A stretch of DNA of 64,000 nt, from the NCBI GenBank assembly GCA_025965695.1, contig JAOPWM010000133.1, forward strand, positions 1 through 64,000, in the 5' to 3' direction. Made by a program: the position numbers and the translations under genes. The DNA is from Blastococcus sp. GTDB taxonomy: Bacteria; Actinomycetota; Actinomycetes; Mycobacteriales; Geodermatophilaceae. The notes under the pieces were generated by a model. The model ran no database searches, was not told the origin of the DNA, and saw only the letters and a program-made list of their open reading frames with translations. Below, piece after piece: positions 52,031-59,181 of this stretch (its first letter is position 1; each line of letters opens with the position of its first letter).

Positions 52031-52137
52031 GCCATCAGGTTGCCCTACGGGTGCCTCCCCCCGACAGGGACGGACCACCGATCTGCTGCGGATGACACGC
52101 CCGGGCGCGCGTCGCTGGCCTCACATCGGGTAGAACG

Positions 52138-52165
52138 GGTCACGCGAGACAAGCGGAACGTGACC
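52138..52165. promoter_or_regulatory. inverted repeat upstream of the flavohemoglobin gene
   Basis: GGTCACG (52138-52144) and CGTGACC (52159-52165) are perfect 7-base arms 14 bases apart, ending 39 bases before the GTG of the flavohemoglobin gene. Position and symmetry suit an operator for a dimeric regulator. It does not resemble a known NsrR site closely enough to name it. Confidence 0.45.
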
Positions 52166-52204
52166 GCTGCCAGCGGGGGGCTAGTCGACTGGCAAGGAGA
52201 CCAC

Positions 52205-53458
52205 GTGCTTTCCGACAGATCCCGACCCGTGATCGAGGCGACGCTTCCCGTCGTCGCGGCGAACATCGAGGACATCGCGACGCGCTTCTACAGCCACCTG
52301 TTCAGCGCACACCCCGAACTGCTCGACGGCGTCTTCAACCGCGGCAACCAGGCCGAGAAGACCCAGCAGCTGGCCCTCGCCGGGTCGGTCGCGGTCTTCG
52401 CCAGCTCCCTGGTGCAGGTGCCCGAGCAGGTGCCCGAGCGCCTGCTCTCCCGGATCGCGCACAAGCATGCGTCCCTCGGGATCACGCCGGCGCAGTACGA
52501 CGTCGTCCACGACAACCTGTTCTGGGCGATCGTCGACGTGCTCGGCGACGCCGTCACGCCCGAGGTCGCCGCTGCGTGGGACGAGGTCTACTGGCTGATG
52601 GCCTACGCGCTGATCAACCAGGAGCGCGGCCTCTACAGCGCCCGTGGCGTGCGGCCGGAGACGGTCTGGCGCGAGTGGGAGGTCGCCGAGCGGATCCAGG
52701 AGACCGAGGACGTCGTGACGTTCCGGGTGCGACGGACCGACGACCGGCTCGTGAAGACCTCGCTGCCCGGCCAGTACGTGACCGTGCAGGTGCCGGTGCC
52801 CGACGACGTGCGTCAGCCCCGGCAGTACAGCCTGACCCGGGCCGACGACGGGGAGCACCGCGAGTTCGCGGTCAAGCGCGTACGCGGGGAGGACGGCAAG
52901 CCGGACGGTGAGGTGTCGAGCCTGCTCTTCGCGACGGTGCAGGTCGGTGACCGGCTGACGATGTCGCTGCCCTTCGGGGACGTCGTCCTCGACGACTCCC
53001 GCCCGGTCGTGTTCGCCAGCGCCGGTATCGGGGTCGCCCCGATGGCGGGCATGCTCTCCCACCTGGTGGCCGCGGGGTCGCGCCTGCCGATCACGTTCCT
53101 GCACGCAGACCTCGACGAGGCGTCCTTCGCCCTCCGCCGCCAGGTGCTCGACGACGTCCGGGCGCTGCCCGGGGCGACGGCGCACGTCTGGTACGAGCAC
53201 GGCGCGGAGAGCACGCTGCCGGTCGAGGTGCATGCGGGCCGGATGGACCTCGACGACGTCAAGCTGCCGTCCGACGCCACCTACTACCTGTGCGGTCCGT
53301 TGCCCTTCATGCAAGCGGTCCGCAGCGCCCTCATCGAGCAGGGGGTGGCACCCCGCGACATCCAGTACGAGGTGTTCGGCCCCGACCTCTGGCAGGCCGA
53401 CCTCGTCACCGAGGAGACCCCTGGCGCTGGCGACCGGAGCACCCAGGCACCCCACTGA
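52205..53458 (+). CDS. hmp: flavohemoglobin / nitric oxide dioxygenase
   Basis: A 417-residue three-domain protein. The globin domain (about 1-140) has proximal His88 in AHKHASLGI and WDEVYWLMAYALI. The FAD domain (about 155-265) has PGQYVTVQV and RQYSLTRADD. The NAD domain (about 270-400) has FASAGIGVAPM and LCGPLPFMQAV, ending in YEVFGPD. All functional motifs of Hmp are present, so it should oxidise NO to nitrate using O2 and NAD(P)H. The GTG at 52205 has AAGGAG six bases upstream. It is the first of three closely spaced genes; the inverted repeat upstream may mediate NO- or oxygen-dependent control. Confidence 0.92.
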   Translation: MLSDRSRPVIEATLPVVAANIEDIATRFYSHLFSAHPELLDGVFNRGNQAEKTQQLALAGSVAVFASSLVQVPEQVPERLLSRIAHKHASLGITPAQYDVVHDNLFWAIVDVLGDAVTPEVAAAWDEVYWLMAYALINQERGLYSARGVRPETVWREWEVAERIQETEDVVTFRVRRTDDRLVKTSLPGQYVTVQVPVPDDVRQPRQYSLTRADDGEHREFAVKRVRGEDGKPDGEVSSLLFATVQVGDRLTMSLPFGDVVLDDSRPVVFASAGIGVAPMAGMLSHLVAAGSRLPITFLHADLDEASFALRRQVLDDVRALPGATAHVWYEHGAESTLPVEVHAGRMDLDDVKLPSDATYYLCGPLPFMQAVRSALIEQGVAPRDIQYEVFGPDLWQADLVTEETPGAGDRSTQAPH

Positions 53459-53541
53459 GGTCGGCCGCCCCGTCGACCGTTCCGACCCGGCGGGCACCAC
53501 CCCGGCACCGGCCGGACGACCATCTACCGAGGAGAACGCTC

Positions 53542-54681
53542 GTGGACATTCCCGCGATGCGGGCCAACTTCGCCAAGTCCGCCGCGACCGGGGACGAGGC
53601 CCCGCTGTACTTCTACTCGCACCTGTTCCTCAGCCATCCGGAGACCCGCCAGCTGTTCCCGGTGTCGATGGCGCACCAGCGCGACCGGCTGTTCGCGGCC
53701 CTCGGCGACGTCGTGGCCCGGGTCGACGACCTCGAGGCGCTGGTACCGATCCTCCAGCAGCTCGGCCGCGACCACCGCAAGTTCGGAACGCTCGCGGCGC
53801 ACTACCCGGCCGTGGGCGGCAGCCTGCTCGCAACGCTGGAGCACTTCGACGACGAGTGGTCCCCCGAGCTGGCCAAGGACTGGACCGAGGCCTACACCCT
53901 GGTCGCCGAGGTCATGATCGAAGCGGCCGAGGAGGCTGCTGAGCAGCCGCCGTGGTGGGAGGCGGACGTGGTGGCCCACGAGCGCCGCACCATCGATGTC
54001 GGCGTCCTGCAGGTGCGCCCGCGTAAGCGCTACGACTACCTGCCGGGTCAGTCGGTCTCCCTCGAGACCGACCTGCGCCCGCGCCTCTGGCGCTACTACT
54101 CCCCCGCCAACGCACCGCGCCCGGACGGCCTCCTGGAGATCCACGTCAAGGCGCGGGACGGCGGCCCCGTCAGCTCGGCGCTGGTTCGCCGGGTCGGGGT
54201 CGGTGACGTGCTCCGTCTCGGACCCCCCATGGGGCACCTCGCCCTGGACCGCGAGAGCGACCGTGACCTCCTGCTGGTCGCCGGCGGCATGGGACTGGCG
54301 CCGTTGAAGGCCCTGATCGATCAGGTGGTGCGCAATGGACCGGCCCGACGGGTGGACCTGTTCGCCGGGTTCCGCACCGAGGACCAGATCTACGACCGCG
54401 CGGACCTGCAGCGCCTCGAGCGGGAGAACCCCTGGCTGACCGTTACGCTCGTCGTCTCCGAGGACAAGCTCTCCTCCCTGGAGCACGGGGACGTCGGTGA
54501 CGTCGTCCTGCGCAACGGCCCGTGGCTCAGCCGGGAGGTGTTCGTGGCCGGCCCCGCCGTGATGGTGGACGACACGGTGACCCGGCTCGTCCAGCACGGC
54601 GTACCGAGACAACGGATATCCAGCGAGGTCTTCGCCCCCAGCCGACCGGGGCCCAGTGTTGACGGAGAGGTGACCGAATGA
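53542..54681 (+). CDS. globin domain FAD-binding oxidoreductase (actinobacterial flavohemoglobin-like)
   Basis: A 379-residue second globin-reductase fusion, clearly different from the preceding Hmp. The globin domain (about 1-130) has proximal His78 in LGRDHRKFGTLAAHYPAVG. The linker (about 135-145) is acidic and carries PPWWEA. The FAD domain has LPGQSVSLET and RLWRYYSPANAP. The NAD domain has LLLVAGGMGLAPLKALID and VFVAGPAVMVDDTV. The Hmp-type CGP motif is replaced by VAGPAVM. It starts with GTG 53542 (GAGGAG upstream), 84 bases after hmp. Its stop overlaps the DivIVA start (ATGA). The physiological ligand may be O2 or NO; not determinable here. Confidence 0.9.
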   Translation: MDIPAMRANFAKSAATGDEAPLYFYSHLFLSHPETRQLFPVSMAHQRDRLFAALGDVVARVDDLEALVPILQQLGRDHRKFGTLAAHYPAVGGSLLATLEHFDDEWSPELAKDWTEAYTLVAEVMIEAAEEAAEQPPWWEADVVAHERRTIDVGVLQVRPRKRYDYLPGQSVSLETDLRPRLWRYYSPANAPRPDGLLEIHVKARDGGPVSSALVRRVGVGDVLRLGPPMGHLALDRESDRDLLLVAGGMGLAPLKALIDQVVRNGPARRVDLFAGFRTEDQIYDRADLQRLERENPWLTVTLVVSEDKLSSLEHGDVGDVVLRNGPWLSREVFVAGPAVMVDDTVTRLVQHGVPRQRISSEVFAPSRPGPSVDGEVTE

Positions 54682-55412
54682 CCACCGAGCATGACGCGTC
54701 CGCGACCGACGACCGGAGTTTCACACCGGCCGACTTGCAGCACGTGCAGTTCGCCCGTGCCTCCATGCTGCGTCCCGGCTACGTCGACTCGGAGGTGGAC
54801 CGGGTCCTGAGCCGCGTCGCCGAGGAGCTCGGCCGCCTCTACGCGGAGAAGGCGGCGTTGCGGGACGAGGTGCGGTCCCTGCGGGCCCAGGTCGACGGCG
54901 TCGTGACCCCCGTGGCGCCCAGCGAGCAGGCTGTGCGCATCCTGTCCGTCGCTCAGCAGACCGCGGACAACTACGTCGCGGAGGCGGAGGAGTTCAGCCG
55001 CCAGGTGACCAGTGAGGCCCGGAGCGAGTACGAGGAGCAGGTCCGCCAGGCCCGGGAGAACGCGGGGGCGATCATCCAGGCGGCCCAGGAGGCCGCCGCC
55101 CAGCTCTCCAGCGGGGCGCCGCGCGCGGACGCGACCGGTCAGCGCAGTGTCGAGGAGCTGCAGGAGCAGGTCGCCTACCTCAAGGCCTTCGCGCAGGCCT
55201 GCAGAGTCCAGCTGCGCTCGTACCTGGAGGCGCTGATCGGCGACGTGGAGACCGAGTGGGGGCGCGCCGACCCTGCCGCGCTGCCGCAGGCGCCGCAACG
55301 CCCTCCAGCCCAGCGCGCAGGGACGACGTTCGAAGCCAACACCGCCGGGGAGCCGCCGCCGGAAGACGCGGACGACCTCTCGGCGACTGCGGGGTCCCGG
55401 TCCGCGACCTGA
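54678..55412 (+). CDS. DivIVA domain-containing protein
   Basis: A 244-residue coiled-coil protein. The N-terminal DivIVA lipid-binding segment is FTPADLQHVQFARASMLRPG followed by YVDSEVDRVLSRVAEEL. Long heptad-rich helices follow (about 45-75, 90-150 and 160-195), then a Pro/Ala-rich disordered tail (about 200-244). It is not the essential Wag31, whose genes sit beside division loci, but a shorter paralogue. The ATG overlaps the stop of the globin gene by 4 bases, so translation is coupled. The link to two hemoproteins is unexpected. Confidence 0.87.
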   Translation: MTTEHDASATDDRSFTPADLQHVQFARASMLRPGYVDSEVDRVLSRVAEELGRLYAEKAALRDEVRSLRAQVDGVVTPVAPSEQAVRILSVAQQTADNYVAEAEEFSRQVTSEARSEYEEQVRQARENAGAIIQAAQEAAAQLSSGAPRADATGQRSVEELQEQVAYLKAFAQACRVQLRSYLEALIGDVETEWGRADPAALPQAPQRPPAQRAGTTFEANTAGEPPPEDADDLSATAGSRSAT

Positions 55413-55452: not shown

Positions 55453-55499
55453 TACATCGCCCGGGCGGCGGTCGTAACCTCCGCCGCGGGGTGAGTCAT

Positions 55500-56534
55500 A
55501 TGACGACGGGGTCGATCGGTCATCCGTCGCGCGGTCGCGACGGACGCCGGCAGTCCGCATCGCTCGCGCTGACGGCCGTCGTGGTGCTCGCACTCGGGGC
55601 CTGCGGCGGTAAGAGCAGCGGAAGCGAGAGCGGAAGCGGGCAGTCCCAGGCGCTGACGCTCTACACCTGCGTCAACGACGCGACGATCCAGCCCGTCATC
55701 GCGGCCTTCGAGAAGGCCGAGTCCGGTAGCCACGTCGACCTGTTCCGCGCACCCACGGGTGAACTGAACGCGCGGGTGGCAGCCGACGCGCGGTCAGGGG
55801 GGCTTCGTGCCGACGTCGTCTGGGGGTGCGATCCGCTCACCGTGCAGGCATTCGTCGACCAGGGGCTGGTCGGCGGCTGGACGCCGCCGGACGCCGACGC
55901 CGTCCCCGCCGAGTTCCGTACCGACGACTACGTCGGCGCGCATGTGCTCTACATGGTGGCCGTGCACCGCACCGACGTCCCGGCGCCGCGGACCTGGGCG
56001 GACCTGGCCGGTCCGGGCTACACCGCCCTGGCCGTGCCCGACCCCTCCGTGGCCGCCTCCGCACTCGGCACGCTCGGCTACTTCGCCGCGGACCCCGCGT
56101 ACGGCGTGGACTTCTACCGGAGCCTCAAGGACCACGGTGCCGTGCAGGTGAGCACGCCCGACAACGTGACCACCGGCGTCGCCCAGGGCGTCTACGACGC
56201 GGGCATCACCACCGCTTCGTCGGCGTACGCCGCGAAGGACGACGGCTCGCCCGTGGACGTCGTGTGGCCGGAGCCCGGCGCGGTCGCGATCTACGGTCCG
56301 ATCGCGCTGGCCACGCACAGCGCCGACTCCGGGGCGGCCAAGGCGTTCATCTCCTTCGTCGTGAGCAAGGAGGGGCAGACCGTGCTGGGCGGAGCCGGCT
56401 CCTACCCGACGCTGCCGGGCGTCGGCGGGCCCACCGTCCCCGCCGGCGCCCCCGTCGTCTCCCCCGACTGGGCGGCGATCGGCGCCGACAAAGCCAGCAT
56501 CCTGGCCGACTACCAGCAGGTCTTCGGCGGCTGA
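55500..56534 (+). CDS. ABC transporter substrate-binding lipoprotein (iron/Fe3+-type)
   Basis: A 344-residue periplasmic-binding-protein-like lipoprotein. The signal peptide ends in the lipobox LGAC (Cys about residue 35), followed by a Gly/Ser linker. The mature part opens with ALTLYTCVNDATIQPVIAAFE and contains RADVVWGCDPLTVQAF and TWADLAGPGYTALAVPDPS, typical of the ferric iron/FbpA-type cluster. The ATG at 55500 is preferred over the GTG at 55491. The permease follows 3 bases after the stop. Substrate could be ferric iron or another small anion. Confidence 0.85.
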   Translation: MTTGSIGHPSRGRDGRRQSASLALTAVVVLALGACGGKSSGSESGSGQSQALTLYTCVNDATIQPVIAAFEKAESGSHVDLFRAPTGELNARVAADARSGGLRADVVWGCDPLTVQAFVDQGLVGGWTPPDADAVPAEFRTDDYVGAHVLYMVAVHRTDVPAPRTWADLAGPGYTALAVPDPSVAASALGTLGYFAADPAYGVDFYRSLKDHGAVQVSTPDNVTTGVAQGVYDAGITTASSAYAAKDDGSPVDVVWPEPGAVAIYGPIALATHSADSGAAKAFISFVVSKEGQTVLGGAGSYPTLPGVGGPTVPAGAPVVSPDWAAIGADKASILADYQQVFGG

Positions 56535-56537
56535 CCG

Positions 56538-58211
56538 ATGCGCCCCCGCGGCACGCCGACCGTGGTCCGGGCCGGCGTTCCGGTCCCGCTCGCCCTGCCG
56601 GTCGCCGTGCTCCTCGGCGTCCTCGTCGCCCTCCCCCTGCTACGCCTCGTCCAGGTGCTGTGGCAGGAAGGGGACCTCGCGGGGATCCTCGGCTCCCCCG
56701 GCCTGGGCACGGCGATCGGCCACACCGTCGTCCTCGCTGTCGCCGTCACGGTCACCGCCGTGCCGATCGGCGTCGCGCTGGCGCTGGCCCTGCGCCGACC
56801 CGACCTGCCCGGACGGGCGTTCTGGCGGGCCGCCGTGCTCCTGCCGGTGGTCGTGCCCGACTTCGTCCTCGGCTACAGCTGGACCCAGGCCTACGCCCGG
56901 GCCGGCTTCACCGACACCCTGCTCGGGCTGCACTGGGACGGCCTGCTCGGCCCCGTCGGCGTCTGGCTCGTCCTGGTGGTGAACGCGGCACCGCTGGCCT
57001 ACCTGGTCGTCGCCGTCGGGCTGGCCGCACGGTCGGAACCCGATCTGGAGCGCGCCGCCCGGGCGTCGGGCGCCGGCAGCACCACAGTCCTGGTCACCAT
57101 CACCCTCCGGCTGGTGTTGCCTGCGGTGGCGGCCGCCTCGGTGCTGGTGTTCGTCCTGACCCTCGGGACGTTCGCGATCCCGCAGGTGCTCGGCACACCT
57201 GCGGGCTTCCGCACGGTGACCACCCGGATCTACGCCGACCTCTCGATCGGGGGCGACCCGACCTCCTTCCTCGAGGCGGTGTCGCTCGCGCTGCTCCTCG
57301 TGCTCGTCGCGGTCGTCTGCGTGGCCCCGAGCGACGCCCTGCTCGGCCCCCGCCTCCGGAGTGCGCGGCCGGCCGACGCGCAGGGGCAGCAGAGCGTGCC
57401 GGGGGGGCGCGCGGCGCGCCGCGGCCAGGCCGTGGGCGTGGGCCTCTACCTGCTGCTGACCATGGCGGTTCCGCTGGCGGCGCTGGCGCTGTCGTCGGTC
57501 ACCCGAGCCCTCGGGGTGCCGCCGACGCCCGGCAACTGGACTCTCGACCACTTCCGGCAGGTGCTCACCGTCCGCACCGTGGAGGCCCTCGGTCGCAGCG
57601 TGGGCCTGGCCGTCGTCGCGGCATCGCTGCTCGTCCTCCTCGGCGGCCTGGTCGCGGTCGGCGAACGCCGCCGAGCCGGACGGGCGACGGCGACCCTGAT
57701 CACCCTCACGCTCGTCCTGCCGGGCTCCACCCTCGCGGTCGCACTGCTGATCACGTACGGGCGCTGGCTGTCGGGAACGCTGACCCTGATCCTGCTGGCC
57801 TATCTCGCCAAGCTGTGGGCCTTCGCGCACCGGCCGATCGCCGGCGCACTCGACCGGCTGCCTCCCGACGAACTGCACGCCGCGCGGGCGAGCGGGGCGG
57901 CCTTGCTCACCGCCGTCCGCACGGTGGCCCTGCGGCCGTTGGCGCCCGCCCTGCTCGGTGCGTGGCTGATCTGCTTCCTCACCGCCCTGCACGAGGTCAC
58001 GATGTCGAGCCTGCTCTACGGGCCGGGCAGCGAGACGTTGGCCGTGGTGGTGCTCAACAGCCAGGAGCTCGGCCGGATCGGACCGACGGCGGCCCTGTCC
58101 GTCGTCCTCACGGTGCTCGTGGCTGCGCCGGCGCTGCTGCTCTCACCGGTGGTCGGACGACTGCGCGTGCCACACGACGGTCCACGCGCCGAGGTGGCGC
58201 GTGTCGGCTGA
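56538..58211 (+). CDS. ABC transporter permease, two fused modules (iron-type)
   Basis: A 557-residue membrane protein with about 12 helices in two halves, each with a coupling EAA-like loop: LERAARASGAGSTTVLVTITL in the first half and LHAARASGAALLTAVRTVAL in the second. FbpB/AfuB-like permeases of ferric importers are fused in this way. It begins at ATG 56538, three bases after the binding-protein stop, and overlaps the ATPase start by 11 bases. Confidence 0.88.
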   Translation: MRPRGTPTVVRAGVPVPLALPVAVLLGVLVALPLLRLVQVLWQEGDLAGILGSPGLGTAIGHTVVLAVAVTVTAVPIGVALALALRRPDLPGRAFWRAAVLLPVVVPDFVLGYSWTQAYARAGFTDTLLGLHWDGLLGPVGVWLVLVVNAAPLAYLVVAVGLAARSEPDLERAARASGAGSTTVLVTITLRLVLPAVAAASVLVFVLTLGTFAIPQVLGTPAGFRTVTTRIYADLSIGGDPTSFLEAVSLALLLVLVAVVCVAPSDALLGPRLRSARPADAQGQQSVPGGRAARRGQAVGVGLYLLLTMAVPLAALALSSVTRALGVPPTPGNWTLDHFRQVLTVRTVEALGRSVGLAVVAASLLVLLGGLVAVGERRRAGRATATLITLTLVLPGSTLAVALLITYGRWLSGTLTLILLAYLAKLWAFAHRPIAGALDRLPPDELHAARASGAALLTAVRTVALRPLAPALLGAWLICFLTALHEVTMSSLLYGPGSETLAVVVLNSQELGRIGPTAALSVVLTVLVAAPALLLSPVVGRLRVPHDGPRAEVARVG

Positions 58212-59181
58212 GCCGGTACCGGAGGCCGCTGCCGTCGAGATTGTGGACCTCGTGGTGGAGTACGACGGGACGACGGCGCTGCGCGGGGTGAGCCTGACCG
58301 TCGGGGCGGGTGAGGTGCTCGCGCTGCTGGGCCCCTCGGGGTCGGGGAAGTCGACGCTCCTGCACGCGGTGGCCGGGTTCCTCGAGCCGCGTGCGGGCAC
58401 CATCCGGCTCGCCGGAACGACCGTGAGCGGCGACGGACGGCCCGTGCCGCCGGAGCGCCGGGAGCTCGCGGTGGTGTTCCAGAACTACGCCCTGTGGCCG
58501 CACCTGTCGGCACTGGACACCGTCGCCTACCCGCTCCGCCGCCGCGGCGCTCCCCGCGTGCAGGCCCGCGCCGAGGCGCTCGAGATCATGCGGCGGCTGC
58601 GGGTCGACCACCTGGCCCAGCGACGACCGGCGGAACTGTCCGGCGGGGAGCAGCAACGGGTGGGCCTGGCCCGTGCCCTGGCCCGTCGTCCGTCGGTGTA
58701 CCTGTTCGACGAACCGACGGCCCACCTGGACACCCATGTCCGCGGGGTCTTCCTGGACGAGCTCGTCGCCCGCCAGCAGGACAGCGGTGCCGCCGCCGTC
58801 TATGCCACGCACGACGCGGAGGAGGCTCTCGGGCTGGCCGACCGGGTCGCCCTGCTGGACCATGGGCATGTGCTGCAGGTCGGCACCCCGCAGCAGGTCT
58901 ACGACGAACCCGTGGACCTGTTCGCCGCCCGGCTCACCGGCCCTGCCTCGGCGATCGACGACGGACAGCTGCTGGTCCGCCCCGGGTGGGCCCGGCTCGG
59001 CGGCCCCCTGGAGGGCGACGTGCGCGCGGTCCGGTTCCGCGGCCCGCACTCGGACTACCTGGTGCACAGTCCCCGCGGCGAGGTCCTGATCCGCGAGGCC
59101 GGGTCCCCGCGACATGCCGTCGGCGCTCACCTGGGCTGGACCCTCGAGCACGGCTGGCCGCTGGCGGGGGGCGCGATCTGA
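58201..59181 (+). CDS. ABC transporter ATP-binding protein (iron-type)
   Basis: A 326-residue ATPase: Walker A LLGPSGSGKSTLLHAVAGF, Q-loop VFQNYALWPH, signature LSGGEQQRVGLARALAR, Walker B YLFDEPTAHLD and switch His in YATHDAEEALGLA. The C-terminal about 80 residues (LTGPASAIDDGQLLVRPGWA...) resemble the TOBE regulatory domain of FbpC/PotA-like proteins. The GTG at 58201 overlaps the permease by 11 bases. It completes a three-gene importer and is followed by a strong bidirectional terminator. Confidence 0.9.
   Translation: MSAEPVPEAAAVEIVDLVVEYDGTTALRGVSLTVGAGEVLALLGPSGSGKSTLLHAVAGFLEPRAGTIRLAGTTVSGDGRPVPPERRELAVVFQNYALWPHLSALDTVAYPLRRRGAPRVQARAEALEIMRRLRVDHLAQRRPAELSGGEQQRVGLARALARRPSVYLFDEPTAHLDTHVRGVFLDELVARQQDSGAAAVYATHDAEEALGLADRVALLDHGHVLQVGTPQQVYDEPVDLFAARLTGPASAIDDGQLLVRPGWARLGGPLEGDVRAVRFRGPHSDYLVHSPRGEVLIREAGSPRHAVGAHLGWTLEHGWPLAGGAI

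Follow-up and report, generated by a model that had tools for sequence, protein, structure and literature searches.

What ties a gene for a DivIVA-domain protein to genes for haem- and flavin-containing enzymes? The question arises from a 64,000-nucleotide stretch of Blastococcus contig JAOPWM010000133.1 (hereafter the window), which comes from a 4.09 Mb metagenome-assembled genome (MAG) with 81.5% completeness; statements of gene absence for this MAG are weaker than those for complete relatives. Three genes follow one another on the forward strand. The first encodes an Hmp-like flavohaemoglobin of 417 aa (P0001, 52205–53458, GTG start), the second a globin-FAD-NAD protein of 379 aa that we regard as the core of the module (P0002, 53542–54681, GTG start), and the third a Wag31-like DivIVA-domain protein of 244 aa (P0003, 54678–55412, ATG start). 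The reading frames of P0002 and P0003 share a 4-bp stop/start overlap, ATGA (54678–54681). An earlier note on this DNA had described a full Hmp, followed by a different globin-FAD-NAD fusion whose stop overlaps a DivIVA gene, and the coordinates, frames and Pfam domains all agree with that description. The Globin, FAD_binding_6 and NAD_binding_1 domains scored above the Pfam cut-offs in both P0001 and P0002.

Judged by its sequence, P0001 is an ordinary relative of Hmp. The order of its Pfam domains (Globin, FAD, NAD) is that of flavohaemoglobins, and its best PDB match was 6o0a (E 2.9e-81). It retains Tyr B10 (Y29), Gln E7 (Q54), His F8 (H88), the G-helix Tyr (Y98) and the H-helix Glu (E140). 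Its score of 314 bits is under the 432-bit cut-off of the NCBIfam equivalog for NO-inducible flavohemoprotein, which places P0001, on this measure, among Hmp-like proteins outside NCBI's equivalog.

P0002 is more distant from Hmp than P0001. It scored 149 bits against the same cut-off of 432, and its closest PDB match was 1gvh (E 1.5e-27). It has the three-domain architecture by Pfam and the flavohaemoglobin fold in a predicted structure, whose globin half is of low confidence and whose top fold matches were the flavohaemoglobins 1cqx and 1gvh. Tyr B10, His F8 and the G-helix Tyr (Tyr88) are kept in P0002 and its linked relatives, and the FAD/NAD motifs are largely conserved. Gln E7 (Q46), which aligns with the Hmp Gln, is invariant in the Geodermatophilaceae set. 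The proximal His-Tyr-Glu triad of Hmp is, in turn, incomplete: His and Tyr are present, and Glu is replaced by Ala129, with Ala at this position in 57/57 linked proteins. Ser171 and Glu362 are among the residues that separate the linked P0002 relatives from other relatives. Cysteine is absent from P0002, as it is from 22 of the 57 linked proteins.

The earlier note had also held that the two globins differ in the context of the proximal His and in the NAD motif, and these differences are indeed there. Position F7 is Lys in P0001 and Asp in P0002, H23 is Glu140 in the former and Ala129 in the latter, and the nucleotide motif reads AGIGVAP in P0001 against GGMGLAP in P0002; the C-terminal motifs differ as well (YEVFGP and SEVFAP, respectively). 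Distinct roles for the two proteins, as the note proposed, are plausible and consistent with these residues. Because the haem and FAD/NAD motifs are kept, the reductase of P0002 is likely active and its globin likely binds haem and ligand. The chemistry of that globin probably differs from that of Hmp, and since Ala stands in place of the proximal-triad Glu, the globin half may lack efficient NO dioxygenase activity of its own.

The DivIVA family marks cell poles. P0003 scored 51.2 bits against the cut-off of 28 for Pfam DivIVA (PF05103), and 75 bits against the 260-bit cut-off of the NCBIfam Wag31 equivalog. Its N-terminal DivIVA domain (54723–54900, forward strand) carries the GY..EVD signature and matches the Wag31 N-terminal structure 6lfa, with the loop SMLRPGY aligned to PPIGKRGY of Wag31. 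The predicted structure (pTM 0.26) consisted of two long helices, a third C-terminal helix and a disordered tail; the C-terminal helix is conserved as YLKAFxQACRxQLRSYLEALL. In the SMLRPGY loop the hydrophobic/basic pattern persists, which is suggestive, and no more, of localisation at negatively curved membrane, poles or septum.

Is the coupling a peculiarity of this genome? A scan with P0002 over 84,980 species genomes returned 34 loci, and in all 34 the next gene on the same strand encodes a P0003 relative; the stop/start overlap (ATGA, once GTGA) was found in 34/34 distinct named-contig loci. Many of the loci are closely related and should not be tallied as independent events; it is the separate family-level groups that supply independent support. 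Of 60 genomes compared within the window's family, 26 have both a P0002 and a P0003 relative, and the remaining 34 have neither, their DivIVA matches being weaker where there are any. The weak match examined in the window's own genome is Wag31, encoded separately on another contig (C304) and adjoining sepF and ylmG. Because the same 26 genomes hold both genes and Wag31 sits elsewhere, P0003 is a second DivIVA copy, found in the family only together with P0002.

A P0002 profile (A1) was used to find relatives across the order and the phylum. The pair is present in groups f1, f4, f6, f13, f14 and f20, in Kineococcus and in Embleya; at least five family-level groups besides the window's own have it. 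Among the divergent downstream proteins, for some of which the start codon is uncertain, six of seven scored above the Pfam DivIVA cut-off, the seventh reaching 23.5 bits against 28. Another 43 globin-reductase relatives that we compared lack a recognisable DivIVA. A maximum-likelihood tree built on 103 rows placed 60 of them in one group of mostly linked proteins (support 93/53), of which 57 were linked, two unlinked and one at a contig end; none of 500 label shuffles was as clustered as the observed linkage. The two unlinked members are a second copy in one genome (G127) and a long-diverged branch linked to nitric oxide synthase (NOS). As the pair is kept in every same-subfamily relative examined bar these two, the linkage is far beyond chance. 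A single origin is likely rather than proved, since the basal node of the linked clade has moderate support. No DivIVA-globin fusion was found in the ORFs scanned.

The proposed coupling of DivIVA to a globin is therefore supported at the genomic level; the polar or septal position and the redox control of growth that the note also suggested are inferences. Loss of the linkage in other genomes, which the earlier note had named among the grounds for dropping the idea, was not what we saw, for the pair is kept across the family and beyond. The conserved unit is nonetheless smaller than the note had it: the globin-reductase and DivIVA genes form it, whereas the three-gene set with Hmp is an arrangement of the Blastococcus lineage.

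Several further observations were made on these loci. In one genus of f13, unlinked P0002 relatives form tandem duplicates (L128, G106, G118, G124, G136, G141 and G154). A locus recorded under 'Bacillus sp. AZ43' (SPQJ01000005.1, L026), with an UNVERIFIED_ORG flag, groups inside Blastococcus in the tree, and the record is likely mislabelled. Directly after the DivIVA gene, the window encodes the solute-binding protein, fused permease and ATPase of an ABC transporter (55491–59181). We rejected this transporter as a part of the module: downstream conservation is limited to the nearest relative (L024), with generic ABC ATPases elsewhere. A comparison of the linked-locus neighbourhoods gave no neighbour family common across groups beyond scattered generic ABC ATPases.

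What varies is the haemoprotein next to the pair, in a position we call slot 1. Counting NO-related partners within 700 bp in 69 distinct linked loci, we found a group-1 truncated haemoglobin (trHb1) upstream on the same strand in 28 and just downstream of DivIVA in one, Hmp on the same strand in 21 and divergent in five, a NOS oxygenase in one, and no partner in 13. By comparison, 45 of 47 unlinked loci had no partner and two had NOS. Same-strand upstream Hmp occurs in all nine sampled genomes of the window's GTDB genus, and these nine gave no trHb1 match. The small globin that occupies slot 1 in other families matches PF01152 and fits group-1 structures (3aq5, E 4.7e-23; 1idr, E 2.2e-16) better than group-2 structures. 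The 19 best trHb1 matches among 150 genomes of the order all lie beside the pair, and in the family sample trHb1 matches strongly in four genomes, each time in slot 1. Embleya carries the complete trHb-reductase-DivIVA set. Slot 1 thus looks like a swap of one NO-active haemoprotein for another. Hmp was considered as the core of the module and rejected, being a lineage-specific occupant of slot 1 that is replaced by trHb1 or nothing in other lineages.

The region upstream of the window's Hmp gene (52085–52204) contains the blocks GACACGCCCGG, GCGGAAC..GTGACCGC and AGCGGGGGGCTAGTCGACTGG, which are kept across Blastococcus. In a comparison made by eye only, none of the NO-responsive sites already known was recognised upstream of the Blastococcus Hmp. 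The trHb leaders in f14 carry conserved blocks of a different kind. In a Modestobacter MAG (L040, 1303–1952), an apparent shortened Hmp remnant, made up of the globin part and two small reductase pieces, lies just upstream of the pair; it looks like decay or an assembly error.

The NOS-linked side branch offers a second view of the partner. Bacterial NOS oxygenases need an outside reductase. On a plasmid of Micromonospora zamorensis (NZ_CP107937.1, 3742–6164; L158), found by tblastn against plasmids, a NOS oxygenase gene overlaps that of a P0002 relative by 1 bp. Five genomes of a single genus (G072, G151, G159, G172 and G178) show this NOS-globin-reductase arrangement too, and NOS oxygenase lies directly upstream in six side-branch loci; a divergent NOS stands beside the P0002 relative in G176. 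Downstream of the globin-reductase in five loci (L109, L118, L181, L182 and L183), the place of DivIVA is taken by a conserved coiled-coil protein of 200-odd aa. Those compared are 42–78% identical, and the two tested are weakly DivIVA-like (15–21 bits, one at 21.1, under the Pfam cut-off of 28). The protein downstream on the plasmid has 172 aa and an RRGY...VD motif and is likewise under the DivIVA cut-off. The window's own genome, at its 81.5% completeness, yielded no NOS. In SyNOS a single chain holds NOS, globin and reductase (PMC6104048), and the adjacent genes of the NOS branch suggest a split counterpart of it. By that analogy, the NOS branch speaks for, without proving, an involvement of the globin-reductase in NO chemistry.

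Our best reading of the locus, to which we give about an even chance, is that P0002 is a reductase serving NO-active haemoproteins, with a dedicated Wag31-like scaffold organising it at the membrane. The sequences directly show the gene content, the coupling, its conservation and the retained motifs and DivIVA domain, while electron transfer to the partner, NO as the substrate, contact with DivIVA and a membrane or polar position are inferred from them. Globin NO dioxygenases require an electron donor, which is known for only a handful of them (PMC3820574). P0002 and the DivIVA paralogue form a translationally coupled pair, usually joined by one further NO-active haemoprotein, namely a group-1 truncated haemoglobin in most lineages and Hmp in Blastococcus. 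Electrons from NAD(P)H would enter the FAD of P0002 and pass from the flavin to its own haem and to the haemoprotein of slot 1, and this feed would keep NO/O2 chemistry (NO dioxygenation) turning over. P0003 would oligomerise on curved membrane and, once assembled there, hold the enzymes in place. A broader proposal, which we advance tentatively and at somewhat below even confidence, is that a private DivIVA scaffolds a globin-reductase powering an exchangeable NO haemoprotein (trHb1, Hmp or, in the side branch, NO synthase) at a membrane site of NO processing, and that DivIVA would thus organise gas and redox enzymes beyond growth and division.

The genes might instead be merely co-expressed on one stress-response transcript, with the DivIVA paralogue protecting or remodelling the poles without touching the haemoproteins. 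Genes acting in parallel are commonly joined in operons, the Hmp/trHb slot is exchangeable, and the scanned ORFs hold no DivIVA fused to a globin. Yet the 4-bp overlap never varies within the family, in contrast to all other neighbours, and the paralogue exists there only with a P0002-type enzyme. Such exclusive pairing usually implies a shared complex or strict stoichiometry, which weakens the co-expression explanation; we consider it rather unlikely.

A sensory role, in which the globin-reductase would detect O2, NO or NAD(P)H and alter the assembly of the DivIVA paralogue, making polar growth or septation responsive to gas, also strikes us as improbable. Two features would suit such a sensor. 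In the family, translation of the DivIVA paralogue invariably comes directly after that of the globin-reductase, and no genome has the paralogue alone; and the conserved haem site has lost the proximal Glu, a combination compatible with sensing over fast turnover. Wag31 itself was reported to act through FtsI under oxidative stress (Mukherjee 2009, as cited in PMC9878328). On the other hand, the reductase motifs are largely conserved and the partner genes encode enzymes of NO metabolism, with which catalysis fits better, and the Wag31 that controls growth is a separate gene of the same genome. Finally, P0002 is very doubtful as an actinobacterial type II flavohaemoglobin (Rv0385 type), that is, a DivIVA-attached membrane disulfide/mycothione or D-lactate reductase: by the features described in PMC8883573, on which this comparison rests rather than on the Rv0385 sequence, type II proteins are actinomycete-restricted and membrane-associated and P0002 has the D(x)8GxxP pattern used there (DLLLVAGGMGLAP), but it lacks the two conserved cysteines that the disulfide-reductase model needs and has B10 Tyr and F8 His intact.

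Each component belongs to a known family. In the open-licence PMC literature we found no paper linking DivIVA with a flavohaemoglobin, truncated haemoglobin or globin, and the obligate pairing with an exchangeable NO partner appears undescribed. If the pairing is functional, group-1 truncated haemoglobins, most of which have no known electron donor, gain a candidate native reductase, and the DivIVA family acquires a role outside cell-wall growth, in positioning haem and flavin enzymes. The locus suggests a previously unnoticed, membrane-anchored nitric-oxide-processing unit in many soil actinobacteria.

The module can be set against four known systems. Hmp from E. coli (1gvh) and R. eutropha (1cqx) has the same globin-FAD-NAD order as P0001 and P0002, and P0002 resembles it in fold and likewise keeps Tyr B10, Gln E7 and His F8; P0002 differs from Hmp in the absence of the H23 Glu, in the Asp of position F7 and in its obligate pairing with DivIVA. 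In contrast to HbN/GlbN, a group-1 truncated haemoglobin, the trHb1 of slot 1 directly adjoins a dedicated flavin-globin reductase. P0003 shares the N-terminal DivIVA domain, the GY..EVD signature, the coiled coil and the C-terminal helix with Wag31/DivIVA (6lfa, 2wuk), but lies outside the division cluster, and its partner is a redox enzyme and not a set of cell-wall genes. SyNOS of Synechococcus PCC 7335 combines a NOS oxygenase, a globin and a flavin reductase (PMC6104048), as the NOS branch does in separate genes, whereas SyNOS is a single polypeptide with a mammalian-type NOS reductase and no DivIVA.
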